Positions 2,948 through 57,558 of a stretch of DNA of 62,249 bases are shown here, piece after piece. The stretch comes from Pseudobdellovibrionaceae bacterium (lineage in GTDB: Bacteria > Bdellovibrionota > Bdellovibrionia > Bdellovibrionales > Bdellovibrionaceae), in contig JAHBUW010000019.1 in NCBI GenBank assembly GCA_019637875.1, forward strand, positions 1 through 62,249, given 5' to 3'. The notes below the pieces were generated by a model. The model saw only the letters and a program-made list of their open reading frames with translations, had not been told where the DNA came from and made no database searches. Numbering within the stretch: the first letter of the stretch is position 1; each line of letters starts with the position of its first letter. The translations under genes were made by a program, and so were the position numbers.

Positions 2948-2954
2948 TGTCGCC

Positions 2955-3794: not shown

Positions 3795-3826
3795 AGTGAA
3801 ACGACCGCCACGTCGACGAAGATCCT

Positions 3827-4213: not shown

Positions 4214-4352
4214 TTCGAGAACTCCTGAACCCTCTCTTAACATAATGCCCCTTTCGAGGCCACGATTGTCTCACTTCGAGAGGTCCGCTTTGAGAACGCT
4301 TTCAAGTCTGTCGTCGGGATTTCCGAAAAGTTCAATGATGGTGAGGGCGAAG

Positions 4353-29518: not shown

Positions 29519-29690
29519 GATCAGGAATCGAACTCCAATCCCAATCAGGAATCGAACTCCAACCCCAATCAGGAATCGAACTCCAACCCCAATCAGGAAT
29601 CGAAACTCCAACCCCAATCAGGAATCGAACTCCAACCCCAATCAGGAATCGAAACTCCAACCCCAATCAGGACTCCGAGCCCCACTCCCA
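29519..29690. repeat. 24/25-bp tandem repeat array downstream of mreB
   Basis: Six full units and a partial seventh of the form AATCAGGAATCGAACTCC-AACCCC occupy 29519-29664, then degrade up to 29690, directly beside the mreB stop codon. Units 4 and 6 are 25 bases long, with an extra A. Each unit contains a small inverted repeat GGA-ATCGAAC-TCC. In the minus-strand transcript the array would form the mreB 3' untranslated region. All six frames stay open across it because the unit lacks stop codons, so the short ORFs there are not evidence of a gene. Confidence 0.9.
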
Positions 29691-35832: not shown

Positions 35833-35851
35833 TCAACGAAAGGACCGCAAC

Positions 35852-37219
35852 ATGTGTAACGACAAACGCCGTGACTTTTTGAAGATCTCTGGACAAACTG
35901 CGCTGCTCGCCGCGACCGCGCCGCTCTTGAATATGGGCTATATCTCGGCCGCGCAGGCGCAGGCCGCGAACAATCACATCCTGGTCTACGTGTTCTTGCG
36001 TGGCGGATGGGACGGTCTCAGTATCGTGGTGCCGACGAACGCGACCCGCGTGAAAGAGCTCAATGAGCTGCGTCCCAAGACCGGCCGCATCGCCATGGAT
36101 CAGAAGACCCTGTTGAAGCTGAAGGATGGCACGAAAGACTACGAATTCGGTCTGCATCCGCAGATGAAGGGGCTTCATGGCCTGTGGAAAGACGGGCAAG
36201 TCCTGTTCATTCACGGCGCGGGCGCGAAAAGCGGGAACCGTTCCCATTTCGAGCAGATGGCCTTGATCGAGACGGGCGTTGCGGCCGAAGGCGTGAACAC
36301 GCCCAAAGGCACGGGCTTTCTGAATCGCGCGCTGCTCGGGATTTCGCCCGCGGCGGTCATTCAGGGAGTGGCGGTTTCGTCACTGATCCCGACGTCGTTG
36401 AAGGGGTCGAAGCCCACGCTGGCGTCGACGAACTTCCAGAATTACTTCAAGCAGACCGACGCTTCGAAACAGCTGCGCGATATCGCCTCGACGAATATTC
36501 AAGGCTCGCGCGACGCCCTTCAGGGGCGCATTCAAGATCACTTGCTGGGGACCGCGCCCGCGAATCCCGGCTCGGCCGATAAACAACTGACCGGTGCGGG
36601 TCGTAACGGCATCCGCAGCTTGGATCTGGTTGAAGGGATCGTGCAACAATCGGCGGGCGAGTACGTCGGCGGGGCCGGCGCGCTTTTCGCGCAGGCCGAA
36701 CGCGTGATCAAAGCCCAGAAGGGTAAAACGGGCGATCAGGCCGTCCGCACGGTGACCATCGACATCGGCGGTTGGGATTCGCACTTCGATCAGCGCCAAA
36801 TGCTCGAAAACTCCGTCGCGGGTTTGGACGCGGCCCTTTCGCAGTTCGCGAAAGCGGTTCTTCCGGGCGGCAACGTCACGATCGTGGTGCAAAGTGAATT
36901 CGGTCGCACGGCTCGTGAAAACGGCACCGGTGGTACCGATCACGGACGCGGCACGGTCATGATGGTCTTGGCCAAGAAGGGTGAGCTCGCGAAGAAGGTT
37001 TTGACGAAAAACTTCTCGCTCGCGAAGTCGGCGCTCGATTCCGGTCGCGACGTGAAAGTGAACATCGATTTCCGCGAGATTTTCGCCGAGATCCTGACGA
37101 AACGAATGGGCGTGCCGAAGAAACTGATCAATCAATCGCTGGTCGTGAGCGGAAAGACCTACGAGCCCATCTTCCCCGGTTACGCGGGGAACGAACACAA
37201 GATTTTCAAGGGCGCTTAA
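35852..37219 (+). CDS. DUF1501 domain-containing Tat-exported protein
   Basis: This 455-residue protein has a twin-arginine signal: KRRDFLKISG followed by a weakly hydrophobic stretch and Ala-Gln-Ala cleavage near residue 33. The DUF1501 fold is alkaline-phosphatase/sulfatase-like. Its features here are VYVFLRGGWDGLSIVVP near the N-terminus, HFEQMALIETG, GGWDSHFDQRQ and SEFGRTARENGTGGTDHGRG; the Asp and His residues are consistent with a metal site. The activity is not established for the family. Tat export implies folding in the cytoplasm, perhaps with a metal cofactor, in contrast to the Sec-exported partner. AAAGGA lies 8 bases before the ATG. Confidence 0.92.
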   Translation: MCNDKRRDFLKISGQTALLAATAPLLNMGYISAAQAQAANNHILVYVFLRGGWDGLSIVVPTNATRVKELNELRPKTGRIAMDQKTLLKLKDGTKDYEFGLHPQMKGLHGLWKDGQVLFIHGAGAKSGNRSHFEQMALIETGVAAEGVNTPKGTGFLNRALLGISPAAVIQGVAVSSLIPTSLKGSKPTLASTNFQNYFKQTDASKQLRDIASTNIQGSRDALQGRIQDHLLGTAPANPGSADKQLTGAGRNGIRSLDLVEGIVQQSAGEYVGGAGALFAQAERVIKAQKGKTGDQAVRTVTIDIGGWDSHFDQRQMLENSVAGLDAALSQFAKAVLPGGNVTIVVQSEFGRTARENGTGGTDHGRGTVMMVLAKKGELAKKVLTKNFSLAKSALDSGRDVKVNIDFREIFAEILTKRMGVPKKLINQSLVVSGKTYEPIFPGYAGNEHKIFKGA

Positions 37220-39920: not shown

Positions 39921-40948
39921 TGAAGACGTTGTGGTTGAGCGCGTTGGCGCTGACATTGGTGGCGGGCCCTCTTCACGCGCGGGATGCGCGTTTCGATCAA
40001 CTCAAAAAAGACCTGCACATCACGCTCGCCGTGCCCCCGCAGTCGGTGCAATCCGTGATCGGCTTGGCCGGAGACAGTTTGGCGATCGGCTCCAGCGCCG
40101 CTTTGCGCGGGGGGCACGACTCCAAAATCGCGCCCCAACGGATTTTCGACACGCCCCGGAGCGCCCAGTTCGGCTTTTCGCGTGCGCTCACGCAAATGGG
40201 GATGGCCGGAATCGATTGCGAGGAATGCACATTCGGGTATCGCTGGGCGCGGGCCCGGGCGTTTCCTCGTGAAAATATCTTTTTTGCCGCCCAAGGGGGC
40301 GCGCGCGTGGACGCCCTGGGCGAGCAGCTCGACCGGCTGGCGCTCCCGTTGGGGACGCTCCCGTCATTGATCCTGGTGTCCTTTACGGGCAATGACATTT
40401 GTTCCGTCCGCAACTTGACGCCGGATGGACGTGCGCTGTCGGAAGAAGGACTTCGCAAAAGCGACGAGGTGCGGGACACCTTGGTGCGTGAGCTGCGCTC
40501 GGGCATCGAACGAAATTCCGCCGAGGGCGCGCGGATCGTGATTCTGGGCGCGGCACCGGTTCTGGAGCTTTTGACGAATCCTTCGATTTTGAACCACGAG
40601 ACGCCGGTGGCCGGCAAAGACGAGGCGGGGCGGGGGCGGACCTGCCGTGAGCTGCGGACGGGCGCTTTCCCGCTGCTGAATCAAATGTGTCCGCTGATCC
40701 TGAATACCCGGCCCGAGGACCGCGCCAAACTCGCTTTGATCGGTGAGCTGTACGCGGCGGTGGTCGCCGGCCAGAAGGCCGCGGTCGACGTGCTACGTGC
40801 CGAGTTCGCGGCCCGCGGGGTGACGTTGGAATTTAACGATTCTTTTCGCGACGTGAAATTCGCGGAAGGGGACGTCTCGGACGACTGCTTCCACCCCTCC
40901 GCAGAGGGACACCGCCGCCTTTTTGAAATGTTGAAGCTTGATTACTGA
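39920..40948 (+). CDS. Secreted SGNH/GDSL hydrolase
   Basis: This 342-residue protein starts at ATG 39920. A signal peptide ends at Leu-His-Ala (residues 18-20). The SGNH blocks are visible: block I GLAGDSLAIG (nucleophile Ser53), block III FTGNDIC, and block V DDCFHPSAEGH carrying the catalytic Asp and His. The block II Gly is in AAQGGARV. These enzymes are esterases or lipases acting on acyl or acetyl groups, including those of peptidoglycan and surface polysaccharides; the substrate is unknown. It overlaps the end of the giant fibre gene on the opposite strand by 7 bases. Translation is coupled to the small secreted protein upstream. Confidence 0.9.
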   Translation: MKTLWLSALALTLVAGPLHARDARFDQLKKDLHITLAVPPQSVQSVIGLAGDSLAIGSSAALRGGHDSKIAPQRIFDTPRSAQFGFSRALTQMGMAGIDCEECTFGYRWARARAFPRENIFFAAQGGARVDALGEQLDRLALPLGTLPSLILVSFTGNDICSVRNLTPDGRALSEEGLRKSDEVRDTLVRELRSGIERNSAEGARIVILGAAPVLELLTNPSILNHETPVAGKDEAGRGRTCRELRTGAFPLLNQMCPLILNTRPEDRAKLALIGELYAAVVAGQKAAVDVLRAEFAARGVTLEFNDSFRDVKFAEGDVSDDCFHPSAEGHRRLFEMLKLDY

Positions 40949-43900
40949 CCGGCGGGTTTGCGTTTTTGCATTTCGATCAGCAGCTTGACCTGCTCGGCGA
41001 GCTCGCGGTTCTGCTCTTCCAGACGGTCCATACGCGATTTCAGATCTTGGTTCTCTTGTTTGAGCGCGTTGACATCTTCTTTCACGACCGTGACTTCTTG
41101 ATCCAGCTCTTGGATCGCCTTCAAGCTCCAGGGGATCAGGCCGACGTAGTTCACGCCCAACATATCGTTGTTCGGACTGATGCGACGAACCAGCTGGGGC
41201 ACGATCTCTTGGACTTTTTGGGCGATCAAACCGAACTCGACTTTTTTGTCGGGATCGTTTTTCATCGTGTACGAATAAACGGGTAGGGCGCGGACGATGC
41301 GCAGACCGTCTTTCAGGGGCGTGATATTTTCCTTCAGGCGCCAGTCGGAAACGTCGGTGATGGTACCGGTGTACTGGATGTCGCCCACGACATCGAGGGT
41401 CGCGCCGGGAGACTGGGTTCCGATACCGACGTTGCCGCTCGCGGAGTCAATGACGAAGGGAACCGACCAACTCGAGCCGTTGTAGTATTGGAACTGCAGA
41501 TCATTGCGGATGCTCGAGTTCGCGTGGTTGTTGCCGGCGGCCTCAATGCCCCAACCGTGCGTGTTCGCCGAGCCCAAGAGATTGTGACCGTTACGGGTCG
41601 TCAGAAACAGGCTGGCCCAGGCCGCCGAAGAGGTGCCGTTCAACCCGAGTTGGATATTCGAGTTGCTCGAGGCGTTCGGTGCCAGAGCATGGATCGTCGT
41701 GAGGGGGCTGTTCGTTCCAAAACCGACGTTGTTGTTGCTCGCGATGGTCATGGCGACGGTGTCTTCGATGGCGAACTGGATTTTGCCCGAGTTGTCATCG
41801 GTATCCGAGTTCAGCACCAACGCATTGTCGAGTACGCCCGAGATCGTGCGGTTGAAGACCTGACTCGAGGTGCCCGCAAGGCCGAGAAGTCCGGTGACGG
41901 TGTTGGTGTCCTGTCCCAGGAACAGCATCGGATTGTGATTTTCATTCGTGTTCGTCGGATCGGCGACGATCGCGAGCATGGCATCCCCGGTTTCGGTTTT
42001 CACGGCGAGATTCGCGTCGGAAACGTAAGCATCGGACTCCGATCCCACGACGAGGTCGTTCTTGTACCAAGAGTAGCCGTCCGCGTTCAAAACGACGTTA
42101 TAAAGCGGGGAGCCGTCGGTGGAGTCTTTGCTGTGAACGGCCAGCCACGAGGTGTGACCGGGACCGTCGACGGTCATGACGGGACGGCCCGGCGAACGGA
42201 CTTCCATTCCGACCGCGGCCTGCGCGGAACGGTAGATCAGCTTTTGCCCGCCGCCGGCAGAGGTCGCGTACAGGTATCCACCATCGTCTGCGGCCGCGTT
42301 CGCGCGGAAGTTCAAAGATCCCCGCAGGCGCTGGTCGCCGAAGACATCCAGCTGGGCGCCCGGATTCACGCCCGCGGTGCCCGCGATCGCGACCCATACG
42401 TTCGGATCGGTTTTGATGTCGACGCCGTTCGGAGTGAATTTCCATTGTGCGGCGGCTCCGGACACGCCCGTGGTGCCCAGGGTGAAGTCCTGCCAGCTGC
42501 CCGCTTGGAAACCCTCGAATTTCGAGTTCGTGGTGTTGTACCGGATCATCCCGTTGATTCCCGTCGGGCGGGCGGCATTGTTCGCGGCCGGAATCACGAG
42601 CGCGCTGTTCGAAGACGTCGTACCAACCAAATGCAAGATCCCCGAAGGCGCACTCGTGCCGATTCCGACGCGACCATCGGACCCGATGGTCATGCGGTCC
42701 ACGGTGGCCGTGGCGTTGGTCGGAGTGGTACCGAAGATGAGGCGTCCGGGAGTGCTCGATGAGGTGTGATCGATGGTCGTCGTCGAGTAAACGCTCGCGC
42801 TGGTTCCCCAAGTGGTGCCGGTCGCCCAGCCGTTGAAGGTGAGGGCGCCGATGTACTGGCTTCCCAGCAGGCGGCCGGGCGCGCTGGCGGTCCCGTTGGC
42901 GTTGTCCAGCGCGAAAATCGAGTGACCCGAGGTTTGTCCGTTCAAATGGTTGCGGGCGACGATCGCCGGCCAGCGACCACTCGAAGAGGTTGTGTTCCGG
43001 ACCATCAGCTCGAGGCTTTCATTGTTCCCCTCGACGTGGAATTTGGCGACGGGGCTGGTCGTTCCGATTCCGACGCTTCCGTTGAAATAGTTCCGATCGT
43101 TCGCACCGGTTTGGTAGATGCCGAACTGGTTGCCCGCGCCCGCCAGATCCTCGATGTAAAGCCCGTAAGAGTGGTTCAGGCCGGTATTGTTTCCACTGTT
43201 TCCGACGTGGAAGCCGATGTACTCCGTCGTGGTGCCGGCGTTGAGAGCCGGGTAGGCCGAGAAGCCGGTGACGCGGTCAACTGTGCCCGAGCCATTCACG
43301 AAAGTGACCGCTTGGGCGCCGATCAGACCGGACAAGGAGCCGGTTCCGGATTTGCTGGCCTCATGGAGGGTCGCGATGATTTCGCCGACGTTCCGGTTGT
43401 TGTTATTGTAGGTTTCAACGAAATGACCGATGAATTGCGCGCTCGCGGCGTTCGCGGTCGGGTTATACTCGGCGGTGGTCCGGAAGCTGTCGCCCCAGTT
43501 CGAGAACACATCCGTTCGCAGCGCGGAGAAGCGAGTGTTTTCGTTGCCGACGAAACCGAGCGGGCCGTAGGTCATGCGACCGTTATTGCTGAAGTTCATG
43601 CGTGTGGTCCCATTGGTACGGATCGCGAGAGGATGGTTATCGTTCGTACCGAGCGTTCCGGTCTGGCCGAACGAGTTTCCACCTTGAGCCCAGTTCAGTG
43701 AACCGCCGGAATTTGTGATCCATCCCAGATTGCCCGCGCCATCGGTCATCAGGAGCTGCCCGGATGTTCCGGTCGCGGCGGGCAGGGTGAGGGTGTAGTT
43801 CGCGGCCATGGCGTCCGCCGCGCGGAGCGAAACGCCGTTCGTACCATTGGCGGCGAGTTCGCGCAGTTGCAAGCGACCCGAGTTGCCGGCGCCAGCCGCG

Positions 43901-46900
43901 ACGGGGCCCGCGATGATCTCGCCGCCCGTGACGTGCAGTTTGCCGTTCGGCGCGGAGGTGCCGATGCCGACGGTTCCCGCGAAGAAGTTGCGGTCGTTCG
44001 TGCCACCTTGATAGACGCCATATTGGTTCGTGCCGACCTGATCGTCGAGGTAGATGCCGTAAGATGTCGTGATGGTGGCGCCGCCGCTCAGGGCCGGCGT
44101 TCCGGCGTAAAGTCCGAAGTATGAGCCGACACTTCCGCCTGTGATTTCGGCGCCGGCGTCGAAAGCCGCCATGTCGCTCACGTTAGAACGGCTTTGGATG
44201 AGCGATTCGAATCCGCGAAGATATCCGATCGGGCCGGTTCCGGTGTCCCATGACGGATTCGAGAGCACGCCGATAATACGGTCGACGGATTGCGACGACT
44301 CCATGATCGGGCGTGCATGCAGAGAGATGAATTCCGACAGCGAGCTGGAGGTGTTGCTGACGTGGTTCGTGATCAGCATATTGCTCTTCCAGCCGTCGGC
44401 GGTGGTGTTGTGCACCGTGTGGAAGCGGTAAGTTTCGTTGAAGTACGCACTATTCGCGCCGACGAACATCGAGCCCGCCGACGTGATGGTCATCCGCGGC
44501 TGATTGTTCGTCTCGAGGACGAGAGATTGCGCGTCGTTCGTGCCGAGCGTTCCGGTCTGACCGAACGAGTTTCCACCTTGAGCCCAGTTCAACGTTCCGC
44601 CCGAGTTCGTCATCCACGAGAGATTTCCGGTCGCGTCGGTCGACAGAATCTGCCCGGAAGTTCCGGTCGCGGCGGGCAGGGTGAGCGTGTAATTCGCGGC
44701 CATCGCGTCGGACGCGCGGAGCGAAACGCCGTTCGTGCCGTTGGCGGCGAGTTCGCGGAGTTGGAGAACTCCGGCCAATCCTGCCGTGGTGCCCGCGGGA
44801 CCGGCGATGATCTCGCCGCCGTTGACGTGCAGGCGTCCCGAAGGCGCGGTCGTGCCGATTCCGACGTTGCCACGGAAGAAGTGTTGGATATTGAAGCCAG
44901 TAATGGCGGTGACTTCATAGTAACTATTGCCGCCGCCGCCAATGGTGAAGCCTTCGTCGTCGTTTCCGCTCGTGGTGACGTCGATCGAACTTCCCGCGAT
45001 GGACTTGGTGTACGTTCCCGTATCTTTCCCGATATTCCAGATGTTGGATGTAGCCCCTTCCAGTCCAATGAAGTGGCCGTCATCGAGAACGATATTTCCC
45101 GCGGCGACATTCAACTTGGCAATCGGACTCGCCGTCCCGATCCCCACGGAACCACCGGCGGTGATCGCCATACGTGTGGTGCCGTTGGTACGGATCGCGA
45201 GAGCATGGTTGTCATTCGTGCCGAGCGTTCCGGTCTGACCGAACGAGTTTCCGCCATGGGCCCAGTTCAGTGATCCGCCCGAGTTCGTCATCCAGCCCAG
45301 ATTGCCCGCGCCATCGGTCATCAGGAGTTGCCCGGAGATTCCCGTCGCGGCGGGCAGGGTGAGGGTGTAGTTCGCGGCCATGGCGTCCGCCGCGCGGAGC
45401 GAAACACCGTTCGTGCCATTGGCGGCGAGCTCGCGGAGTTGTAAACGTCCCGAGTTGCCGGCGCCGGCCGCGAGAGGGCCCGCGATGATTTCGCCGCCCG
45501 CGATGTGCAGGGCTCCCGACGGCGCGGCGGTGCCGATACCGACGTTGCCACCGTTGAAGATCGCGGCGTAGTTGTTCGTTGCGCCCGTTGTCGCGTTCAC
45601 GTTCAAGCCATAGCTGTTCGTGATCCCCGAAACGGCCGTGCTGCGGACCAAGAGGCCCGACGAGTTCGTGATCGTCGCGTTCGTGCCCGCGCGCGGGGGA
45701 CCTTCGACCGCGACGGCGGCCGCGTTCGTGATGACTCCGCCGGCCGATCCGAAGGCATGGGTCGAAGGAATGACGTTGAACTCACGTTGCAGCGCGATCG
45801 CCGTGTTGCCCGAGTGGACGCGGTTTCCGGCCAGATCGAACTGAACCAAGGGCGCCTCGTTGCCGGCGGGAATGGCCGTACCGGCAGTGATGTTGAGGCG
45901 GAACAGCGGGTTCACGGAGTTGTCGGTCGCGGCGCTTCTCCAGATGTTGAACGTGCTATCGCCCATTTGGGCGGACACGCTGCCCAGGCCCTGTTCGAGG
46001 TAGAAACGGCCGTTGCCTTTCGGGAAGAGGTAAAGATCTTCGTTCGTCGCGCTCGACGTCACCGTCATTTCCACGCCGGCGCCCGCGCTGTCCGAGATGA
46101 TTTGGATCCCGTTCGCTGAGTTCGCTTTGCTTGCATTCACCGAGAACGCCGGATTCGTGGCGCCGCTCGCGCCGACCGCGAAGGCGAGTGTCGCATTCGA
46201 AGTGAACGCCGCCGCGCCGGTCGCTGAAATGGACATGCGCGGGATATTGTTCGTTTCCAGGATCAGGCCGTTATTGTCGTTGGTGCCGAGCGTTCCGGTT
46301 TGGCCGAACGAGTTGCCGCCTTGGACCCAACCCAATGTTCCGCCCGGGTTCGTCGCCCACGACAAGTTGCCCGAAGCATCGGTTGCGAGGAACTGTCCGC
46401 TTGCGCCCGTCGCGGCGGGAAGCGTGAGCGCGTAGTTCGCGCCGAGAGCGTCCGGTGCGCGGAGAGAGACGCCGTTCGTTCCGTTCACCGCGAGTTCGCG
46501 CAGCTGCAAGCTTCCCGCGTTGCCGGCGCCCGTGGCGATGGGACCGATGATCGCTTCGCCACCTTCGATGTGTAGACGGCCCGAAGGCGCGGTCGTGCCA
46601 ATACCCACTTGGCCGGCGTCGGTGATCCGCATTCTCTCGAGAGGCGTGGTCGTATGGCCCGTCGAGAACTTGATGGGGCGGTTGTTCGTCATCGTCGCGA
46701 TATGCAAGCCGTTGTTCGCCGAGGATGAGAGGTAACCTTCATTCGGTTGCAACCACGTCGGCAAATAACCCGACGATGTGATACCGACCGAGGTCCGCAT
46801 GGCGCCATCGTTCGCGGCTTGGAAATGTGTATGGGCGAGCGTTCCGGTGCTGGTGTTCGTCAGCACGACGTTCATGCCCGAGCCATTGTTCGATCCCGAG

Positions 46901-49900
46901 ATCGCCAGGATGTTCGAGGGATTGTTGACGCCGATTCCCAGGTTTCCACCCGCGGTCAGGCGCATCTTTTCGTTGAAGCCGATCGCATTGTCCCAAGTCG
47001 TCGTACCTGAATTGTGCTGAGTATAGAACAAGAGGTCGCCGGCGTTCGTTCCGGTGCGTACGGCACCCACGGCCGCGCGACGGACGCCGTCGTCAGTGAA
47101 CGCCAGGAAGGGACCGCCGCCCGTATTGTCTCCGGTACGCTCCAGATTCATGAAGACGTCACCGACGCCCGCCGTATTGTAGGGGCGTGAAATATGAAGG
47201 GGCGCGTTTGGCGTTGCGGTGCCGATCCCGATGGATCCTCCCGCGGTGATCGTCATGCGGGTGGTGCCCGCCGTGCGAATCGCGAGCGCCTGCGCGTCGT
47301 TCGTGCCGAGAGTTCCGGTGACGCCGAACGAGTTTCCGCCGTGAACCCAACCCAAAGTTCCACCGGGATTTGTCGCCCACGACAGATTTCCGGCGGAGTC
47401 CGTCGACAGGAACTGACCGTTCGTGCCGGTCGCGGCGGGCAGGGTGAGCGTATAGTTCGCGGTGAGCGCGTCGGGGGCGCGCAGCGAGACGCCGTTCGTG
47501 CCATTGGCCGTAAGTTCGCGCAATTGTAAGCGGCCGGAGTTTCCCGATCCCGCGGCGAGAGGGCCCGCGATGATTTCACCGCCGGCGACGTGCAGACGTC
47601 CCGACGGGGCATTGGTTCCGATACCGACGTCCCCCGCCGAACTGACCCACAGACGGGCGACCGCATTCGTATCGTCGTAAATTTCAAATGCCCCACCCGT
47701 AAACAGAAGCGAGTTTCTTGGCGCGGGGGAAGCACCGGAGTCATGGAAGAAGGCCAGTGACTGGGCTCCGCCATTTGAGCCCATAATCGAAACCGTGTCG
47801 TTGCCGGTCACGACATGAAATTTTTCGGACGGCGTAGTGGTGCCGATGCCGACCGATCCGCCGGCCGTGACCGTCATGCGCGTGGTGCCTGCGGTGCGAA
47901 CCGCGAGCGCCTGCGCGTCGTTCGTGCCGAGAGTGCCGGTCACGCCGAACGAGTTGCCGCCTTGGACCCAGCCGAGAGTTCCGCCGGGATTTGTCGCCCA
48001 CGAGAGGTTGCCGCTCGCATCGGTCGCGAGGAACTGTCCGCTCGATCCGGTCGCAGCGGGCAGGGTGAGCGTATAACTTGCCGCCAGCGCGTTCGGAACC
48101 CGCAGTGAAACCGCGTCGGTCCCGTTCCCTGAAGCTTCGCGGATCATGAGCGCCGCACCCGTCGTAGCACTCAGCGGTCCCAGGATCATGTCACCGCCCG
48201 CGACGTGCAGACGTCCCGAGGGGGCGAGCGTACCGATCCCGACTTGTCCCGTGCTCGAAATCAGAACACGTCCCGTGTTCGCGGTCGCAAACAAGATCCG
48301 TCCCGCGGCATCGTAGTTGCGGATATCCAGTTGGGCGGCGCCGGTTTGGATCTGCGCAAGACCGCCACCCGCCGTGCTGTACGCGGAAACGTTCAGCGCC
48401 GCCGCATTCGACTCGACGGTGAAGTTCGCTTTCGCCGAAGCTCCGGCGTTGGTGTTCAGAATACGCATGTCCAAGCTGTTGTTCATGGACGTGTTCATGT
48501 CGAATGCCGCGCCCGGTGGCGCCGTACCGATCCCGATCGAGCCACCGGCGGTGAACGTCATGCGGGTGGTGCCGGCGGTGCGGATCGCGAGATCTTGCGC
48601 GTCGTTGGTGCCGAGAGTTCCGGTGACGCCGAACGAGTTGCCGCCATGGACCCAACCCAAAGTTCCACCGGGATTTGTCGCCCACGACAGATTACCGGCA
48701 GCGTCAGTCGACAGGAATTGTCCCGTCGAGCCGGTCGCCGCAGGAAGAGTCAAAGTATAGTTCGCCGCGAGCGCATCGGGCGCACGCAGTGAAACGCCGT
48801 TGGTACCGTTCGCCGCGAGTTCGCGGAATTGCAGACTTCCGGCGTTGCCGGTGCCAGCCGCGACGGGACCCAGGATCGCTTCGCCGCCTTGGATATGCAG
48901 TCGTCCCGACGGCGCGTTCGTACCCAGCCCCATATTGCCGCTGGCGTTCAGGCGCATGGCCTCGGCGCCGTTCGCGCGGAACCACAAGGTGTTGATCGCG
49001 TGGTCATAGGAAAGTCCACCGGCGAAATTCGTGCTCGGAGAACTGAACTTCACCGCCGAGCCGCCCATCGTTCCCGAAACGACGTTGATCGCGTTCGAGT
49101 TGGTCGGCGCGCTGGTGGCGCTTAAGATCAAGAAGTCATCCGCAATGAAAGCGGGATTCGTGGAGCCATTCACCTGGACGTGGAGCTTACCGGACGGCGC
49201 GGTCGTGCCGACGCCGATATCGCCCGTTGCACCGATGTTCAGGCGCGTGGTGCCGTTCGTGCGGATCGCGAGGGCTTGCGCGTCGTTGGTACCGAGGGTT
49301 CCGGTCGCGCCGAAGGCGTTGCCGCCTTGGACCCAGCCGAGGGTTCCGCCCGAAGTCGAGATCGTGATCGAGCCCGCTTGATTCGCGACGGTGACGCCGG
49401 GACCGCCGACGAGATTTCCGATTGCGAAGCCGCCGGTGCCGTTCCCGATCAACAATTGACCGGTGGAGGCCAGCGAACCGTCAAGTCCCGTACCGCCGCG
49501 TTCGACGGCGAGGATGCCGGTGTAAATATCCGAAGCGGCGAGATTACGGAAGACGGGTGCACCCGATGCGCCGGTCGGTGCGGCGAAGACCTGCGCGATG
49601 CCTTGCGTGCCGAGCGAGATCTGGAACGTACCCGCGCCCGTGATCGGGCCACCGGTCACGTTGAAGATCGACGTCGGCGCTTCCAGACCCACGTTCGTGA
49701 CCGAACCCGAAATGGTGCCGGCCGAAGTTTGGATGTTCATCCACAGGCCGGCCTCGTAGACTTCGTACTTACCAAGAGTCGTATTGTAACGGAGCATCCC
49801 CGCGACGGGAGCGGCGGGCCGAGCGCCGCTGGTGTCGCGCGGAAGCACGAGGGCCGATTGATCGCCGACTCCGCGCAGATCGAGGATCGCTGAATTCGAA

Positions 49901-52900
49901 ACGCCGTTCGTGCCCAAAATCATACGGCCGTCGGCCATCAAGTACATGCGGTCGACATTGTTCGTTGAGAACCACATTGAATCGCTGGCGTGATTGTAGC
50001 CGACGCGCCCGTTGTGGCCGTTCGTCCCATTCGTGAAGATGAGCTGTCCGATATCCGCGGATGAGGATTTCAGGACGATGTTCGCGTTCCGGTTGATGGA
50101 CTCCAAAAGGATTTCGGAGTTACTCGCGACATCGCCCGTATTCGCGTTGTTGTAGATGTGCAGCACGCGGCCCGAGTTCGTGTCCGGAGTTGTCGTGCCG
50201 ATCCCCACGAGACCCGTCGATGTGATCGTCATCGCGGTCGTGCCGTTCGTGCGCAGCGCGAGAGGGAAGGCGTCGTTCGTCCCGAGGGTTCCGGTCGCAC
50301 CAAAGGCGTTGCCACCTTGGACCCAGCCGAGCGTTCCGCCCGAAGTCGAGATCGTGATCGAACCCGATTGATTCGCGACGGTCACGCCGGGACCGCCGAC
50401 GAGGTTTCCGATTGCAAAACCGCCGGTGCCATTGCCGATCAAGAGTTGACCGGTCGTCGCGGCCGATCCATCCAGACCGATCCCGCCGCGTTCGACGGGG
50501 AGGATGCCACTGTAGATATCCGAAGCGTCGAGATGACGGAACAAGGGAGCGCCCGTGCTGCCCGTGGGGGCCGCAAAAACCTGGGCGATGCCCTGCGTGC
50601 CGAAGCCCAAAGAAATCGTACCCGCACCCGTCAAAGGAGCGCCGGTGATCGTGAAGACCGAGGTCGGGGCTTCGAAGCCCACGTGGGTGACCGCGCCGCT
50701 GGCGAGCGGATCCAGCGAAATGCCGATCGTGCCTGACTGGTTCTCGATCAGGACGCCGGACGAACCGACGAGGTTACCGAGAGCAAAGCCGCCGGTGCCA
50801 TTGCCGATCAAGAGCTGACCGGTCGTCGCGACGGATCCATCCAGACCGCTTCCGCCGCGCTCAACGGGGAGGATTCCGGAATAAATATCCGAGGCCGCCA
50901 AGTTGCGGAATGCGGGCGCACCCGAGGCTCCGGTCGGTGCGGCGAAGACCTGCGCGATACCTTGCGTGCCGAGCGAGATCTGGAACGTACCCGCGCCCGT
51001 GACGGGACCGCCGCTGACGTTGAAGATCGATGTCGGCGCTTCGAGACCCACGTTCGTGACCGAGCCCGAAACGGTTCCGGTCGACGTTTGGATGTTGGTC
51101 CACTGCGAATCTTGATAGACTTCGTAACGGGCGAGGTCCGTATTGTAGCGGATCATCCCCGGCACGCCGGTCGCGGGGCGGTTCGCGGTGTTGTCGCGCG
51201 GAACGACGATGGCGCTCGAACCGGGGCCTTGACCGTTGAAGGTCACGAGCGCACCGGTCACCGACGAAGCACCACCGAAAACGGCGGTCGTGTCGAAGTT
51301 TGCCGCGCCTTCAAAGTGCGAGGTGCCGCGCACATCGAAGAACGCATTCGGCGTCGCGGTACCGAAACCGAACGAGCCACCCGAAGTGATCGTCATGCGG
51401 TCTTGCGCATTCGAACGCAAAATCAACGGGAAGTTGTCGTTCGTTCCGAGGGAACCGGCTTGCCCGAAAGCGTTTCCGCCTTGGACCCAACCCAGGGTTC
51501 CCGCCGTGGTCGAAACCGTGATCGAACCCGATTGATTCGTGATCGAAACGCCGGGGCCGCCGACGAGGTTTCCGAGCGCGAAGCCGCCGGTGCCATTGCC
51601 GATCAAAAGCTGACCCGTCGAAGCGAGCGATCCGTCCAGCCCAATCCCGCCGCGCTCGACGGGGAGGATGCCGCTGTAGATATCCGATGCGTCGAGATTC
51701 CGGAAGAGGGGCGCGCCGGTGCTTCCGGTCGGTGCGGCAAAGACTTGCGCGATGCCCTGGGTGCCGAAGCCCAAAGAAATCGTACCCGCGCCCGTCAAAG
51801 GGGCGCCAGTGATCGTGAAGACCGAAGTCGGGGCTTCAAAGCCCACGTGAGTCACCGCACCGCTCGCGAGCGGATCAAGCGAGATGCCGATCGTTCCCGA
51901 TTGGTTATCGATCAGAACACCCGACGAACCGACGAGGTTCCCGAGAGCGAAGCCGCCGGTGCCGTTGCCGATCAAGAGTTGACCCGTGGAAGCGAGCGAA
52001 CCGTCGAGACCGATCCCGCCGCGCTCGACCGCGAGAATCCCACTATAAATATCGGAAGCATCGAGGTTACGGAAGCTGGGTGCTCCCGCGCCGCCGGTGG
52101 GCGCCGCGAACACTTGCGCAATGCCTTGCGTACCGAGCGAGATCTGGAAGGTTCCGGCGCCGGTGACCGGGCCACCGCTGACGTTGAAGATCGACGTCGG
52201 CGCTTCAAGGCCTACGTTGGTCACCGAGCCTGAGATCGTGCCGGTGGAGGTCTGGATATTCATCCACTGCGAATCTTGGTAAACTTCGTAGCGCGCGAGA
52301 TCCGTGTTGTAACGGATCATGCCCGGAACGCCGGTCGCGGGACGGTTGGCGCTGTTGTCACGGGGAACGACGATCGAGCTCGAACCCGGTCCCTGGCCGT
52401 TGAAGGTGACGAGCGCCCCCGTGACCGACGAAGCCCCACCGAAGGTGGCCGTGGCATCGAAATTCGCCGCGCCTTCGAAGTGCGAAGTTCCGCGCACATC
52501 GAAGAACGCATTTGGCGTCGCGGTGCCAAAGCCGAATGAACCACCTGACGTGATGGTCATGCGGTCTTGCGCGTTCGAGCGCAAGATGAGCGGGAAGTTG
52601 TCGTTCGTACCGAGCGATCCGGCCTGACCGAAGATGTTGCCACCTTGGACCCAGCCGAGCGTTCCCGAAGTTGTCGAGACCGTGATCGAACCGGATTGGT
52701 TGGTGATCGCCACGCCGGGACCGCCGACGAGATTTCCGAGCGCGAAACCGCCGGTCCCGTCTCCGATCAGAAGTTGACCCGTCGAAGCGGCCGATCCGTC
52801 CAGGCCAATCCCGCCGCGTTCGACGGGGAGGATGCCGCTATAGATATCCGATGCATCGAGATGACGGAAAAGAGGTGCACCCGAACCACCCGTGGGCGCC

Positions 52901-55900
52901 GCGAAGACTTGCGCAATACCTTGCGTGCCGAAACCCAAAGCGATGGTGCCCGCGCCGGTCAAAGGAGCGCCGGTAATGGTGAAGACCGATGTGGGGGCTT
53001 CAAAGCCCACGTGCGTGACCGCGCCACTCGCGAGCGGATCAAGCGAGATGCCGATCGTTCCCGATTGGTTGTCGATCAGAACACCCGAAGAACCGACGAG
53101 GTTTCCGAGCGCGAAGCCACCGGTGCCGTCTCCGATCAAGAGTTGACCGGTCGACGCGAGCGATCCATCCAGGCCGATCCCGCCGCGCTGAACGGGCAGG
53201 ATGCCGCTGTAAATATCCGACGCATCAAGATTACGGAACGACGGCGCACCTGCGCCACCCGTGGGCGCGGCGAAGACTTGCGCGATGCCTTGAGTGCCGA
53301 GCGAGATCTGGAACGTGCCGGCGCCCGTGACGGGACCGCCGCTGACGTTAAAGATCGAGGTCGGCGCTTCGAGGCCCACATTCGTGACCGAGCCCGAGAT
53401 CGTGCCGGTGGAGGTCTGGATGTTCATCCACTGCGAGTCTTGATAAACTTCGTAGCGCGCGAGATCCGTGTTGTAACGGATCATCCCGGGAACACCCGTC
53501 GCCGGGCGGTTGGCGGTATCGTCACGGGGAACGACGATGGCGCTTGAGCCGGGACCTTGACCGTTGAAAGTGGCCAGCGCGCCGGTCACGCCGCTTCCTC
53601 CGCCAAAGACGTTGGTTCCCGAGAAGTGCGCATCGCCGCGCACGTCGAAGAACGCGCCGGGAGTCGCGGTGCCGAAACCGAACGAACCACCCGACGTGAT
53701 GGTCATGCGGTCCTGCGCGTTCGAGCGTAAGATGAGCGGGAAGTTGTCGTTCGTGCCGAGGGAGCCGGCTTGACCGAAGATGTTGCCACCTTGAACCCAG
53801 CCGAGTGTTCCCGAAGTCGTCGAGACCGTGATCGAGCCCGATTGATTCGTGATCGCGACGCCGGGTCCGCCGACGAGATGGCCAAGAGCAAATCCAGCAG
53901 AGCCGTCACCGATCAGAAGTTGACCCGTCGAAGCGGCCGATCCATCCAGACCGATCCCGCCGCGTTCGACGGGGAGGATGCCACTATAAATGTCGGAGGC
54001 ATCAAGGTTACGGAAAAGAGGAGCGCCGGTACTTCCGGTCGGCGCGGCAAAAACCTGGGCGATGCCTTGCGTACCGAAGCCCAAAGAAATCGTACCCGCG
54101 CCCGTCAAAGGCGCGCCGGTGATCGTGAAGACCGAAGTCGGCGCTTCGAAGCCGACATGTGTGACCGCACCACTCGCGAGCGGATCCAGCGAAATCCCGA
54201 TCGTGCCCGATTGGTTTTCAACGATCACTCCCGAAGAGCCGACCAGATGTCCCAGCGCGAAACCGCCGGTGCCGTTGCCGATCAACAGCTGGCCGGTCGA
54301 CGCGAGCGATCCATCCAGCCCGATCCCGCCGCGCTCGACGGCGAGGATACCACTATAGATGTCCGACGCATCGAGATTACGGAAGCCGGGTGCGCCCGCG
54401 CCACCGGTGGGGGCCGCAAAAACTTGCGCGATACCTTGCGTACCCAAAGTGATTTGGAACGTGCCCGCACCCGTGATGGGTCCGCCGCTGACGTTGAAGA
54501 TCGACGTCGGCGCTTCCAGACCTACGTTCGTGACCGAACCCGAGATCGTGCCGGTCGAGGTCTGAATATTCATCCACTGCGCGTCCTGGTAAACTTCGTA
54601 GCGACCGAGATCCGTATTGTAACGGATCATGCCCGGAACGCCCGTGGTGGGACGGTTGGCGCTGTTATCGCGCGGAACGACGATCGAGCTTGAGCCCGGT
54701 CCTTGGCCGTTGAAGGTCACGAGCGCACCGGTGACCGACGAAGCTCCGCCGAAAACCGCGGTCGCATCGAAGTTCGCCGCGCCCTCAAAGCGCGAATCGC
54801 CGCGGACATCAAAGAATGCATTCGGCGTCGCGGTACCGAAGCCGAACGAGCCACCCGAAGTGATGGTCATGCGGTCCTGCGCGTTCGAGCGCAAGATGAG
54901 AGGGAAGTTGTCGTTCGTGCCGAGCGAGCCCGCTTGGCCGAAGGCGTTGCCACCTTGCACCCAACCCAAAGTTCCTGTCGTGGTCGAGACCGTGATCGAA
55001 CCGGATTGGTTGGTGATCGCCACGCCGGGACCACCGACGAGGTTTCCGAGCGCGAAGCCACCGGTGCCGTCGCCGATCAAGAGCTGACCCGTCGAGGCCG
55101 CCGATCCATCCAGGCCGATCCCGCCGCGTTCGACCGGAAGAATGCCACTATAGATATCCGAAGCATCCAGATTACGGAAGAGCGGCGCACCGGCTCCGCC
55201 CGTGGGCGCGGCGAAGACCTGCGCGACGCCCTGAGTGCCGAAGCCCAAAGCGATGGTGCCCGCGCCCGTCAAAGGTGCGCCGGTGATGGTGAAGACCGAA
55301 GTCGGCGCTTCGAAGCCGACGTGAGTCACCGCGCCGCTTGCGAGCGGGTCGAGGGAGATGCCGATCGTTCCGGATTGATTGTCGACGATCACGCCCGACG
55401 AACCGACGATGTTCCCCAGCGCGAAACCGCCGGTGCCGTTACCGATCAAGAGTTGACCCGTGGACGCCAGCGAGCCGTCGAGCCCGATCCCGCCGCGTTC
55501 GACGGCCAGGATCCCGCTATACATATCCGATGCATCCAAATTACGGAAAGAGGGGACACCCGCGCCACCCGTGGGGGCCGCGAAAATCTGCGCGATGCCT
55601 TGCGTACCTAAGGTCAAAGAAATGGTGCCGGCCCCAGTCAGCGGTGCGCCCATAACATCGAAGATCGAAGGCGCTTGGAAGCCGACATGAGTGACCGCGC
55701 CGCTGGCGTTGGGGTCGAATTGGATGCCGATTGATCCGCTTTGATTGTGGATGATCACACCTGAAGAGCCATACAGATTTCCGAGGGCGAAGCCGCCGGT
55801 GCCGTCACCGATGAGCAGCTGACCTGTCGTCGCCACCGAGCCATCCAGACCGGTTCCGCCACGCTCCACGCCCAAAGTTCCGGTCGTGATCTTCGCGGCA

Positions 55901-57366
55901 TCCAGATCCGGAATACGTGCGATATCGAAAGTGCCCGAGGTGATTTTCGCCGCGTCCAAATCGGGGATGCGGGCGATATCAAAAGTTCCAGAGGTGATCT
56001 TCGCGGCATCCAGGTCCGGAATGCGCGCGATATCGAAGGTGCCGGTCGTGATCTTCGAAGCGTCCAGATCAGGAATATCGGATGCATCCATCGGGCGGAA
56101 GAGCGGGATGCCCGTGGTTCCGGTTGCGCCCGTGGGCGCGGCGAAGATGTAACCGACGTTTTGCGCTTGGAACGAAACCTCGAAGCTTCCGTTGGACGTC
56201 ACCGGTCCACCCAGAACTTCGAAGACGTCGTTGGGCATTTGCAGATCCACCGAAGTCACCGCGCCGCTGTTTTTCGCTTCGCAGTTCCAACCCAGGGTCA
56301 GATCCCACACGAGAACTTCGCCGGGTGAACAGGATTTACCTTCAAAGCGTGAAGCCATGCTGTTGTAAACGGGAAGTTCGCCGTTATTGAAAACACCGTT
56401 CCCAAGTCCGCCGTTCACGACGCCCAAAGTGCCGATGAGCTTCGAAACGTTCAGGCTGGTGATATCGTCGTCAACCAGAGTACGGAAAAGCGGTTGACCG
56501 GTCCCGCCCGTCGGCGCGGCCAGAACGCCCGAGCTCGCATCGGCGAAGCCGATCGAAATCGTGCCGCGATCGGTGATGGGGCCACCGGAAACGGCGATCA
56601 CGCCGCTCGAAGATGAAACGGCGTCGACTAAATTCACCGCGGCGAGGGTGCCGAGGGTCGTCGAGATCTGCGTGTCCACGTAGTTTTTGGTCGCGGCGTC
56701 TTGCAGGTCGATGGGATCCATCAAACCTTTGAAAAGTTTCGCGCCAAAGTCGACCTGCGGAGCTTCCGCGAGGTTATAAAGAATCGAAAATCCCATCGTC
56801 GAGAACGAGCGTGTCGGCTCGTGCGCGCCCACGGGGTTGACTTTCATCAGGTAGGGGGCCGAGTAGCCGCCGATCATCTCGGCGTTCGTGGCTTGGATCG
56901 CGAACGGCACCGCTTTGATCGGTCCGTCGAACGTGCGGACCGCGTTCGCACCGTCGAACATCGTGACGACCATCACGCGGTCGTCGGTCGCGGTCGGCGT
57001 GTAGGTCGTGCCGTCATCGCAAGTCAGGCCCGTCAGCGCCAGCGCGGATTCGTTCAAGAACACGTTCGTGAAGGTGGCCGAGCCACCGGCATTTCCGCCC
57101 GAGAGACGTTTCGAAGCGTCACCCGCTTCTACCGCGAACGCGCCCTTCTGGAAGAAGACGTCTTTCTCTTCGCCCCACAGCAAGCAACGCTTGGGATCGG
57201 GAGAGTAGATTTTAATCTGCACTTTGAACGTGCCTTCGAGCGGCGTTCCATCGGGGCGAAGCACGCGTCCCTGGTAGACAAGTTTGCGATTGTTCGCATG
57301 CGCGATCGACGCGAAACCGGCGAGGGTCGCGGAGATCATCAAGGCCAGAAGGAATGGCTTCAGCAT
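40942..57366 (-). CDS. Giant secreted fibre-like protein with Peptidase_S74 chaperone tail
   Basis: This single 5,474-residue frame is the largest gene here. ATG 57366 gives a normal signal peptide (PFLLALMISATLAGF, cleavage after Ala-His-Ala); TTG 57390 lacks a ribosome-binding site. Next is an N-terminal domain of about 150 residues (LVYQGRVLRPDGTPLEGTF), then Gly-rich beta repeats. Four macro-repeats of about 386 residues carry LDASDIYSGILPVERGG, NFPLILRSNAQDRMTI and VPGMIRYNT blocks. Seven modules of about 110 residues follow, each with GRLHxxGGE and ANYTLTLPAATG. The C-terminal 135 residues are a Peptidase_S74 domain (SDWRLKENI at 5340, then KVEFGLIAQKVQEIVPQLV) ending in a coiled coil. 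S74 domains trimerise and cut themselves off phage fibres. The product is probably a long trimeric surface fibre. Confidence 0.93.
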   Translation of the reverse strand: MLKPFLLALMISATLAGFASIAHANNRKLVYQGRVLRPDGTPLEGTFKVQIKIYSPDPKRCLLWGEEKDVFFQKGAFAVEAGDASKRLSGGNAGGSATFTNVFLNESALALTGLTCDDGTTYTPTATDDRVMVVTMFDGANAVRTFDGPIKAVPFAIQATNAEMIGGYSAPYLMKVNPVGAHEPTRSFSTMGFSILYNLAEAPQVDFGAKLFKGLMDPIDLQDAATKNYVDTQISTTLGTLAAVNLVDAVSSSSGVIAVSGGPITDRGTISIGFADASSGVLAAPTGGTGQPLFRTLVDDDITSLNVSKLIGTLGVVNGGLGNGVFNNGELPVYNSMASRFEGKSCSPGEVLVWDLTLGWNCEAKNSGAVTSVDLQMPNDVFEVLGGPVTSNGSFEVSFQAQNVGYIFAAPTGATGTTGIPLFRPMDASDIPDLDASKITTGTFDIARIPDLDAAKITSGTFDIARIPDLDAAKITSGTFDIARIPDLDAAKITTGTLGVERGGTGLDGSVATTGQLLIGDGTGGFALGNLYGSSGVIIHNQSGSIGIQFDPNASGAVTHVGFQAPSIFDVMGAPLTGAGTISLTLGTQGIAQIFAAPTGGAGVPSFRNLDASDMYSGILAVERGGIGLDGSLASTGQLLIGNGTGGFALGNIVGSSGVIVDNQSGTIGISLDPLASGAVTHVGFEAPTSVFTITGAPLTGAGTIALGFGTQGVAQVFAAPTGGAGAPLFRNLDASDIYSGILPVERGGIGLDGSAASTGQLLIGDGTGGFALGNLVGGPGVAITNQSGSITVSTTTGTLGWVQGGNAFGQAGSLGTNDNFPLILRSNAQDRMTITSGGSFGFGTATPNAFFDVRGDSRFEGAANFDATAVFGGASSVTGALVTFNGQGPGSSSIVVPRDNSANRPTTGVPGMIRYNTDLGRYEVYQDAQWMNIQTSTGTISGSVTNVGLEAPTSIFNVSGGPITGAGTFQITLGTQGIAQVFAAPTGGAGAPGFRNLDASDIYSGILAVERGGIGLDGSLASTGQLLIGNGTGGFALGHLVGSSGVIVENQSGTIGISLDPLASGAVTHVGFEAPTSVFTITGAPLTGAGTISLGFGTQGIAQVFAAPTGSTGAPLFRNLDASDIYSGILPVERGGIGLDGSAASTGQLLIGDGSAGFALGHLVGGPGVAITNQSGSITVSTTSGTLGWVQGGNIFGQAGSLGTNDNFPLILRSNAQDRMTITSGGSFGFGTATPGAFFDVRGDAHFSGTNVFGGGSGVTGALATFNGQGPGSSAIVVPRDDTANRPATGVPGMIRYNTDLARYEVYQDSQWMNIQTSTGTISGSVTNVGLEAPTSIFNVSGGPVTGAGTFQISLGTQGIAQVFAAPTGGAGAPSFRNLDASDIYSGILPVQRGGIGLDGSLASTGQLLIGDGTGGFALGNLVGSSGVLIDNQSGTIGISLDPLASGAVTHVGFEAPTSVFTITGAPLTGAGTIALGFGTQGIAQVFAAPTGGSGAPLFRHLDASDIYSGILPVERGGIGLDGSAASTGQLLIGDGTGGFALGNLVGGPGVAITNQSGSITVSTTSGTLGWVQGGNIFGQAGSLGTNDNFPLILRSNAQDRMTITSGGSFGFGTATPNAFFDVRGTSHFEGAANFDATATFGGASSVTGALVTFNGQGPGSSSIVVPRDNSANRPATGVPGMIRYNTDLARYEVYQDSQWMNIQTSTGTISGSVTNVGLEAPTSIFNVSGGPVTGAGTFQISLGTQGIAQVFAAPTGGAGAPSFRNLDASDIYSGILAVERGGIGLDGSLASTGQLLIGNGTGGFALGNLVGSSGVLIDNQSGTIGISLDPLASGAVTHVGFEAPTSVFTITGAPLTGAGTISLGFGTQGIAQVFAAPTGSTGAPLFRNLDASDIYSGILPVERGGIGLDGSLASTGQLLIGNGTGGFALGNLVGGPGVSITNQSGSITVSTTAGTLGWVQGGNAFGQAGSLGTNDNFPLILRSNAQDRMTITSGGSFGFGTATPNAFFDVRGTSHFEGAANFDTTAVFGGASSVTGALVTFNGQGPGSSAIVVPRDNTANRPATGVPGMIRYNTDLARYEVYQDSQWTNIQTSTGTVSGSVTNVGLEAPTSIFNVSGGPVTGAGTFQISLGTQGIAQVFAAPTGASGAPAFRNLAASDIYSGILPVERGGSGLDGSVATTGQLLIGNGTGGFALGNLVGSSGVLIENQSGTIGISLDPLASGAVTHVGFEAPTSVFTITGAPLTGAGTISLGFGTQGIAQVFAAPTGSTGAPLFRHLDASDIYSGILPVERGGIGLDGSAATTGQLLIGNGTGGFAIGNLVGGPGVTVANQSGSITISTSGGTLGWVQGGNAFGATGTLGTNDAFPLALRTNGTTAMTITSTGLVGIGTTTPDTNSGRVLHIYNNANTGDVASNSEILLESINRNANIVLKSSSADIGQLIFTNGTNGHNGRVGYNHASDSMWFSTNNVDRMYLMADGRMILGTNGVSNSAILDLRGVGDQSALVLPRDTSGARPAAPVAGMLRYNTTLGKYEVYEAGLWMNIQTSAGTISGSVTNVGLEAPTSIFNVTGGPITGAGTFQISLGTQGIAQVFAAPTGASGAPVFRNLAASDIYTGILAVERGGTGLDGSLASTGQLLIGNGTGGFAIGNLVGGPGVTVANQAGSITISTSGGTLGWVQGGNAFGATGTLGTNDAQALAIRTNGTTRLNIGATGDIGVGTTAPSGKLHVQVNGSTNPAFIADDFLILSATSAPTNSNAINVVSGTMGGSAVKFSSPSTNFAGGLSYDHAINTLWFRANGAEAMRLNASGNMGLGTNAPSGRLHIQGGEAILGPVAAGTGNAGSLQFRELAANGTNGVSLRAPDALAANYTLTLPAATGSTGQFLSTDAAGNLSWATNPGGTLGWVHGGNSFGVTGTLGTNDAQDLAIRTAGTTRMTFTAGGSIGIGTAPPGAAFDMNTSMNNSLDMRILNTNAGASAKANFTVESNAAALNVSAYSTAGGGLAQIQTGAAQLDIRNYDAAGRILFATANTGRVLISSTGQVGIGTLAPSGRLHVAGGDMILGPLSATTGAALMIREASGNGTDAVSLRVPNALAASYTLTLPAATGSSGQFLATDASGNLSWATNPGGTLGWVQGGNSFGVTGTLGTNDAQALAVRTAGTTRMTVTAGGSVGIGTTTPSEKFHVVTGNDTVSIMGSNGGAQSLAFFHDSGASPAPRNSLLFTGGAFEIYDDTNAVARLWVSSAGDVGIGTNAPSGRLHVAGGEIIAGPLAAGSGNSGRLQLRELTANGTNGVSLRAPDALTANYTLTLPAATGTNGQFLSTDSAGNLSWATNPGGTLGWVHGGNSFGVTGTLGTNDAQALAIRTAGTTRMTITAGGSIGIGTATPNAPLHISRPYNTAGVGDVFMNLERTGDNTGGGPFLAFTDDGVRRAAVGAVRTGTNAGDLLFYTQHNSGTTTWDNAIGFNEKMRLTAGGNLGIGVNNPSNILAISGSNNGSGMNVVLTNTSTGTLAHTHFQAANDGAMRTSVGITSSGYLPTWLQPNEGYLSSSANNGLHIATMTNNRPIKFSTGHTTTPLERMRITDAGQVGIGTTAPSGRLHIEGGEAIIGPIATGAGNAGSLQLRELAVNGTNGVSLRAPDALGANYALTLPAATGASGQFLATDASGNLSWATNPGGTLGWVQGGNSFGQTGTLGTNDNNGLILETNNIPRMSISATGAAAFTSNATLAFAVGASGATNPAFSVNASKANSANGIQIISDSAGAGVEMTVTSSATNEDLYLFPKGNGRFYLEQGLGSVSAQMGDSTFNIWRSAATDNSVNPLFRLNITAGTAIPAGNEAPLVQFDLAGNRVHSGNTAIALQREFNVIPSTHAFGSAGGVITNAAAVAVEGPPRAGTNATITNSSGLLVRSTAVSGITNSYGLNVNATTGATNNYAAIFNGGNVGIGTAAPSGALHIAGGEIIAGPLAAGAGNSGRLQLRELAANGTNGVSLRAADAMAANYTLTLPAATGISGQLLMTDGAGNLGWMTNSGGSLNWAHGGNSFGQTGTLGTNDNHALAIRTNGTTRMAITAGGSVGIGTASPIAKLNVAAGNIVLDDGHFIGLEGATSNIWNIGKDTGTYTKSIAGSSIDVTTSGNDDEGFTIGGGGNSYYEVTAITGFNIQHFFRGNVGIGTTAPSGRLHVNGGEIIAGPAGTTAGLAGVLQLRELAANGTNGVSLRASDAMAANYTLTLPAATGTSGQILSTDATGNLSWMTNSGGTLNWAQGGNSFGQTGTLGTNDAQSLVLETNNQPRMTITSAGSMFVGANSAYFNETYRFHTVHNTTADGWKSNMLITNHVSNTSSSLSEFISLHARPIMESSQSVDRIIGVLSNPSWDTGTGPIGYLRGFESLIQSRSNVSDMAAFDAGAEITGGSVGSYFGLYAGTPALSGGATITTSYGIYLDDQVGTNQYGVYQGGTNDRNFFAGTVGIGTSAPNGKLHVTGGEIIAGPVAAGAGNSGRLQLRELAANGTNGVSLRAADAMAANYTLTLPAATGTSGQLLMTDGAGNLGWITNSGGSLNWAQGGNSFGQTGTLGTNDNHPLAIRTNGTTRMNFSNNGRMTYGPLGFVGNENTRFSALRTDVFSNWGDSFRTTAEYNPTANAASAQFIGHFVETYNNNNRNVGEIIATLHEASKSGTGSLSGLIGAQAVTFVNGSGTVDRVTGFSAYPALNAGTTTEYIGFHVGNSGNNTGLNHSYGLYIEDLAGAGNQFGIYQTGANDRNYFNGSVGIGTTSPVAKFHVEGNNESLELMVRNTTSSSGRWPAIVARNHLNGQTSGHSIFALDNANGTASAPGRLLGSQYIGALTFNGWATGTTWGTSASVYSTTTIDHTSSSTPGRLIFGTTPTNATATVDRMTIGSDGRVGIGTSAPSGILHLVGTTSSNSALVIPAANNAARPTGINGMIRYNTTNSKFEGFQAGSWQDFTLGTTGVSGAAAQWKFTPNGVDIKTDPNVWVAIAGTAGVNPGAQLDVFGDQRLRGSLNFRANAAADDGGYLYATSAGGGQKLIYRSAQAAVGMEVRSPGRPVMTVDGPGHTSWLAVHSKDSTDGSPLYNVVLNADGYSWYKNDLVVGSESDAYVSDANLAVKTETGDAMLAIVADPTNTNENHNPMLFLGQDTNTVTGLLGLAGTSSQVFNRTISGVLDNALVLNSDTDDNSGKIQFAIEDTVAMTIASNNNVGFGTNSPLTTIHALAPNASSNSNIQLGLNGTSSAAWASLFLTTRNGHNLLGSANTHGWGIEAAGNNHANSSIRNDLQFQYYNGSSWSVPFVIDSASGNVGIGTQSPGATLDVVGDIQYTGTITDVSDWRLKENITPLKDGLRIVRALPVYSYTMKNDPDKKVEFGLIAQKVQEIVPQLVRRISPNNDMLGVNYVGLIPWSLKAIQELDQEVTVVKEDVNALKQENQDLKSRMDRLEEQNRELAEQVKLLIEMQKRKPAGQ
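41341..41349 (-). other. Predicted S74 self-cleavage site
   Basis: The codons for Ser5340-Asp5341-Trp of the giant protein lie here. In characterised S74 chaperones cleavage occurs just before the Ser of a Ser-Asp dyad, with a downstream Lys (here in RLKEN) assisting. Both are conserved, so release of the 135-residue chaperone is expected after folding. Confidence 0.7.
43650..48900 (-). repeat. Seven repeats of the second fibre module
   Basis: Related blocks of about 330 bases recur at about 48.85, 48.2, 47.6, 46.55, 45.5, 44.8 and 43.9 kb within the giant gene. Each encodes GRLHxxGGE, an LQLRELAANGTNGVSLR-like stretch, YTLTLPAATG, and a GGxLxWxxGGNSFG linker. They are separated by unique segments of 150-700 bases, so this is a mosaic rather than a simple tandem array. 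Confidence 0.85.
50300..55900 (-). repeat. Four macro-repeats of about 1.16 kb within the fibre gene
   Basis: The block encoding RSNAQDRMTITSGGSFGFG occurs at about 51.42, 52.58, 53.73 and 54.89 kb, a regular spacing of 1,150-1,160 bases (about 386 codons). Long stretches are nearly identical at the nucleotide level, with scattered synonymous changes. Each unit itself holds two related halves built on GTQGIAQVFAAPTG and DASDIYSGIL motifs. A partial fifth copy lies at 49.3-50.9 kb. Confidence 0.9.
55886..56087 (-). repeat. 54-bp tandem repeats within the fibre gene
   Basis: Units begin at 55886, 55940, 55994 and 56048, exactly 54 bases apart, and encode RIPDLDAAKIT(S/T)GTFDIA-type 18-residue repeats. 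The last unit is partial. They separate the N-terminal part from the macro-repeat region. Confidence 0.9.
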
Positions 57367-57384
57367 GCGGTTCAGTGGGTGCCC

Positions 57385-57558
57385 CTTCAAAAAACAAATG
57401 CGAACAAAAGTTCGTAAGTTGTTTTCGGCATTCTCGAGTCATTTCATGAGTTAAGAACGTATATTCTCGACTTGAGGCGGTTCCGGAAGTCGACTGGACC
57501 TGAGGACGAAAGAAGGGCTTTTTGGCGAAGTTGTGGACGAACAAAGTGTCTCGAAACG
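57385..57558. other. Leader region of the giant fibre gene
   Basis: This stretch lies upstream of the fibre gene on the minus strand. A small hairpin CGAAC-AAAA-GTTCG (57401-57414) sits about 35 bases before the start codon. AAGGGG lies about 14 bases before the ATG, a longer gap than usual. No convincing promoter boxes were identified and no ORF is supported. Confidence 0.4.

Follow-up and report, generated by a model that had tools for sequence, protein, structure and literature searches.

Fibres of the Mosaic Adhesive Trimer (MAT) family are the best candidate for the recognition of many prey by Bdellovibrio-like predators. A frame of 5,474 codons in a Bdellovibrio relative raises the question of whether so long a protein belongs to this family and, if so, whether its internal modules bind or its shaft is a spacer only. 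Here, we report the analysis of the whole 62,249-nt stretch of DNA that carries this frame (the window), which is the complete contig C19 of the source genome (3.98 Mb in 30 contigs, 99.6% complete). The product is very probably a giant S74-type MAT surface fibre.

The frame runs on the minus strand from an ATG at 57366 to 40942, with no internal stop in 5,474 codons, and encodes a chain of ~551 kDa; the listed open reading frame (40942..57390, minus strand, 5,482 aa) uses an alternative upstream TTG start. The initial annotation had described one unbroken frame with a Sec signal, an anchor-like N-terminal domain, and a C-terminal Peptidase_S74 domain, akin to the phage-like fibres of Bdellovibrio. 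Each of these points held up, and the kinship can now be given precisely as the MAT family; what had been missed were the spacer repeats and the serial variable modules of the shaft.

Features of the giant fibre gene, from the N to the C terminus of the protein (positions in the window)
Feature	Residues	Coordinates	Strand	Remarks
Signal-peptide-like stretch	1-24	57295..57366	-	By eye: basic n-region, hydrophobic core, AHA before N
MAT N-terminal (anchor) domain	25-168	56863..57294	-	Profile matches; Cys 61 and Cys 116 conserved
Proximal shaft	169-555	55702..56862	-	Translation, TRF
Spacer region	556-2342	50341..55701	-	382/388-residue repeats, near-identical in protein, diverged in DNA
Modular region	2343-4553	43708..50340	-	8 module starts, 207-355 residues, conserved N and C scaffolds
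Distal shaft	4554-5213	41728..43707	-	Same N scaffold at start; capping loops at 4765 and 4900
Predicted mature tip	5214-5339	41350..41727	-	Between capping loops 5214 and 5313
Peptidase_S74 chaperone and C-terminal coiled coil	5340-5474	40945..41349	-	PF13884; stop at 40942-40944

Read by eye, the first 24 residues (MLKPFLLALMISATLAGFASIAHA, followed by NN) resemble a Sec signal that would be cleaved after AHA. Directly after them comes a conserved, beta-rich domain, the counterpart of the ~130-aa domain that follows the signal peptide in each of the 21 MATs counted in HD100 (PMC10769870). The HD100 genome (G040) was recognised via Bd3182: in a genus search with the crystallised Bd3182 tip (8ojn), one genome matched with 100% identity, its frame has 922 aa, and the catalytic serine stands at 782, in agreement with PMC10769870. 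A profile of the window domain (residues 25-168) matched 19 loci in HD100, Bd3182 included, and for this reason we regard the gene as encoding a MAT fibre and not as part of a prophage. Of 369 genomes from the phylum, 120 have the domain according to the profile, as do 29 of 40 related genomes according to a single-sequence search. Its structure model was beta-rich (mean pLDDT, 75), and a fold search against the PDB gave no match at E ≤ 0.001, in agreement with the statement that the MAT N-domain has no structural homologue (PMC10769870).

At the C terminus, PF13884 (Peptidase_S74) matched residues 5340-5394 (E = 8e-15; 55.3 bits, cut-off 22), with an E value of 2.4e-16 in the whole-genome search. 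The SDxxxK catalytic motif of the S74 group of MATs is intact (SDWRLK at 5340), which makes self-cleavage before Ser5340 likely; autoproteolysis at the catalytic serine and surface display have been shown for Bd3182 and other MAT members (PMC10769870). The C terminus also matched MyRF (7dc3; E = 1.5e-4) and a long tail fibre (6f45; E = 1.4e-3) by sequence, PHROGs tail-fibre families matched both shaft and C terminus, and the C-terminal monomer model was poor (pLDDT, 56). No Pfam match to a YadA-type trimeric autotransporter anchor was obtained in the C-terminal 2,185 residues at E values up to 1.

In the proximal shaft, TRF located a tandem repeat of 18 residues (DIARIPDLDAAKITSGTF), around 55886-56077. 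In the spacer region, the best-aligned repeats share 92-94% amino acid identity at ~83% nucleotide identity, and 330-codon windows of these copies gave a dS of 0.85-1.0 and a dN of 0.03-0.09 (dN/dS, ~0.03-0.1), which suggests that the copies are old and kept alike by selection on the protein. Later copies have gained insertions and are more diverged, and among the matches listed, close matches to the 388-residue repeats came only from the window's own genome. Selection for codon diversification against recombination was considered and rejected: at 40%, synonymous differences between repeats have not reached saturation (55%), and codon-shuffled genes have fewer long exact DNA repeats (on average 30 nt, against 62 nt in the real gene); old copies and purifying selection suffice to explain the divergence.

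At least seven scaffold modules lie in the distal half. In the seven that could be delimited (of eight), the parts of the scaffolds that were compared had a mean pairwise identity of 69% (N scaffold) and 75% (C scaffold), whereas the inserts between them, at 28% identity against 26% when shuffled, were no more alike than shuffled sequence; relatives of some inserts lie in the interior of other fibres. The tip of Bd3182 has a loop motif at either end (PMC10769870). A capping-loop pattern, which was drawn up post hoc with both sequences in view so that the count is descriptive, occurs 21 times in the window protein against 0.02 expected after shuffling, and exactly twice in Bd3182 (657 and 753). 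Five pairs stand at a spacing like that of the Bd3182 tip (94-99 against 96 residues), four of them internal (94-98). The last pair, 99 residues apart and ending 27 residues before Ser5340 (96 and 29 for 657/753/S782 of Bd3182), flanks the predicted tip beta-helix as in the S74 group of MATs. By sequence, the shaft matched the crystallised tips of Bd3182 (8ojn; E = 5.7e-5) and Bd2439 (8ol4; E = 0.006). Weak Pfam matches (MBG, RNF152_C, Viral_alk_exo, and coiled-coil families) were dismissed as low-complexity.

The capping-loop pairs at tip spacing are the basis on which we read the shaft as a long spacer that may bear serial tip-like modules. From the observed features (frame, anchor homology, S74 domain and catalytic motif, capping loops, repeat and module statistics) we infer a mechanism in which the chain would be exported by Sec, the C-terminal S74 domain would nucleate the folding of three chains as a triple beta-helix, and this domain would then cut itself off before Ser5340, exposing the tip, with the fibre anchored on the outer surface by its MAT domain. 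A conserved spacer would be formed by the near-identical 388-residue repeats, and the distal modules would present one beta-helix surface after another, each different, so that a single fibre might combine far reach with several adhesive faces for prey or other surfaces. Scaled from the published dimensions of Bd3182, Bd2133, and Bd1334 (~0.28-0.72 Å per residue), its length would be roughly 0.15-0.38 μm. The mechanism is demanding, and it counts against it that a C-terminal nucleator requires ~5,300 residues to remain unfolded until the C terminus has emerged. How a 551-kDa chain whose trimerisation chaperone comes last would be folded and exported is a question in itself.

What the distal modules do is a part of the reading that we hold tentatively. 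Inserts swapped in a fixed scaffold, in the distal half and behind the spacer, would possibly give one fibre several different binding faces in series for several prey surfaces; the inserts could also be passive shaft decoration. The strongest competing account, which in our judgment falls only somewhat short of being probable, is that the fibre binds by its distal tip only and that shaft and inserts form a spacer lifting the tip past capsule or surface layers. The strong purifying selection on the spacer repeats fits this account, and so does the C-terminal tip as the described binding site of MAT fibres (PMC10769870), but the distal modules keep their scaffold and not their inserts, which exceeds what a plain spacer needs, and the tip spacing recurs in internal capping-loop pairs. 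The sequence makes the choice between internal binding and a spacer-only shaft testable.

It is rather unlikely that the protein serves self-aggregation or a biofilm matrix and has no part in prey recognition. Some other bacteria do use giant, repetitive proteins of their surface for aggregation (PMC12863079), and the source organism is not known as a predator; HD100 members of the MAT family, however, are located on the surface of the predator and within prey (PMC10769870), and nothing in the neighbouring genes hints at a matrix or at export. Ten further genes on the contig, mostly close neighbours (DUF1800, DUF1501, NosD, GDSL, Big_2/PA14, and others), include no phage family and no export system.

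That the frame is an assembly artefact, by chimerism or a wrong repeat copy number, is very improbable. Contig ends do cut other fibre genes of the source genome, which indicates that the assembly broke at those genes and passed through the one in the window. Between the spacer copies, 16-18% of bases are different, exact repeats inside the gene reach 62 nt at most, and the longest exact match to the paralogue stretches examined is 36 nt; repeat copies so old and diverged in DNA should not be mixed up by an assembler, and the collapsed misassembly of which the initial annotation had warned is accordingly unlikely. The frame is also intact throughout, and a one-contig genome likewise has frames of >3,600 aa. 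A phage tail fibre within a prophage, to which the S74 domain and PHROGs tail-fibre matches would point, is the least credible reading of all, given the signal peptide-like start and MAT anchor domain, the lack of any phage family in the ten other contig genes, and paralogues on several other contigs.

The source genome yielded six S74 matches and seven N-domain matches (profile). N-terminal fibre parts run off contig ends at C15:1-2812 (L017, 941 aa; anchor domain 80% identical to that of the window) and C24:27546-34957 (L018, 2,471 aa), and C-terminal parts at C3:1-4923 (L020, 1,640 aa) and C21:44341-47333 (L013, 996 aa). With two cut parts of each kind, the genome therefore holds at least two further long fibres besides the complete giant one; the contig ends showed no overlap by which the C15 and C24 parts could be paired with those of C3 and C21.

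Several smaller observations concern the same gene family and contig. At 1-945 of the window (plus strand), the contig start truncates a further fibre, of which the C-terminal part is present. It has a collagen-like Gly-X-Thr stalk, encoded by an 18-bp tandem repeat at 28-497, and ends in a tip related to the termini of non-S74 MAT frames from relatives (L057, L052, and L118; E = 8e-6 to 3e-4). It is adjoined at 983-2893 (plus strand) by a gene whose 636-aa product has a Big_2 domain (E = 7e-24) and a PA14 domain (E = 9e-19). An S74 fibre of 2,075 aa (C2:161806-168033; L015) likewise has a collagen-like Gly-X-Thr stalk, a long one, and its MAT N-domain is diverged. A DUF1800/DUF1501 pair lies near the giant fibre gene (33961-37219, plus strand), and on C2 a short S74 protein (L021, 393 aa) stands just before two genes similar by eye to this pair. 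A tandem repeat with a 24/25-bp unit (3.3 copies of 49 bp) occupies 29512-29672.

The closest known systems are Bd3182 and the other S74-group MATs of HD100 (Caulton et al. 2024, PMC10769870), with which the window fibre shares a signal-like start, a homologous N-domain, capping loops, an SDxxxK S74 domain, and a like tip spacing. It differs from Bd3182 in length (5,474 against 922 aa), in its capping-loop motifs (21 against 2), and in its spacer repeats and serial variable modules. Described MATs are typically ~1,000 aa long and said to vary at the tip; the window fibre is five times longer, with diversity built into the shaft, and the longest matched frame in HD100 has 1,964 aa. Among the matches listed, the window fibre is the longest, followed by frames of 4,503, 4,029, and 3,808 aa in other Bdellovibrionota: the one-contig genome G064 has 4,503, 3,737, and 3,670 aa, G061 (genus Bdellovibrio) 4,029 and 3,689 aa, and G121 3,808 aa. 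The frames of 4,503, 3,737, 3,670, 4,029, and 3,808 aa have the same N-domain as the window fibre, with 7-15 capping-loop motifs in those analysed; the G121 frame, unlike the window fibre, does not end in S74. A limited literature search found no paper on giant MAT fibres, and serial scaffold modules with unrelated inserts, together with 21 capping-loop motifs in the distal half, are what is new here.

Outside the family, phage S74 tail fibres (K1F endosialidase, T5 pb1) and MyRF share with the window fibre a C-terminal autocleaving trimerisation chaperone after a beta-helix, but the former are virion parts and the latter a eukaryotic transcription factor, all without a MAT anchor and far shorter (T5 pb1 has 1,396 aa; PMC4690869). 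Apilactobacillus kunkeei, a different organism, has giant proteins on its surface (3,000-8,000 aa; PMC12863079), which resemble the window fibre as very long bacterial surface proteins. Set against these systems, the window fibre is an extreme new variant within the known MAT family, with an internal architecture worth testing.
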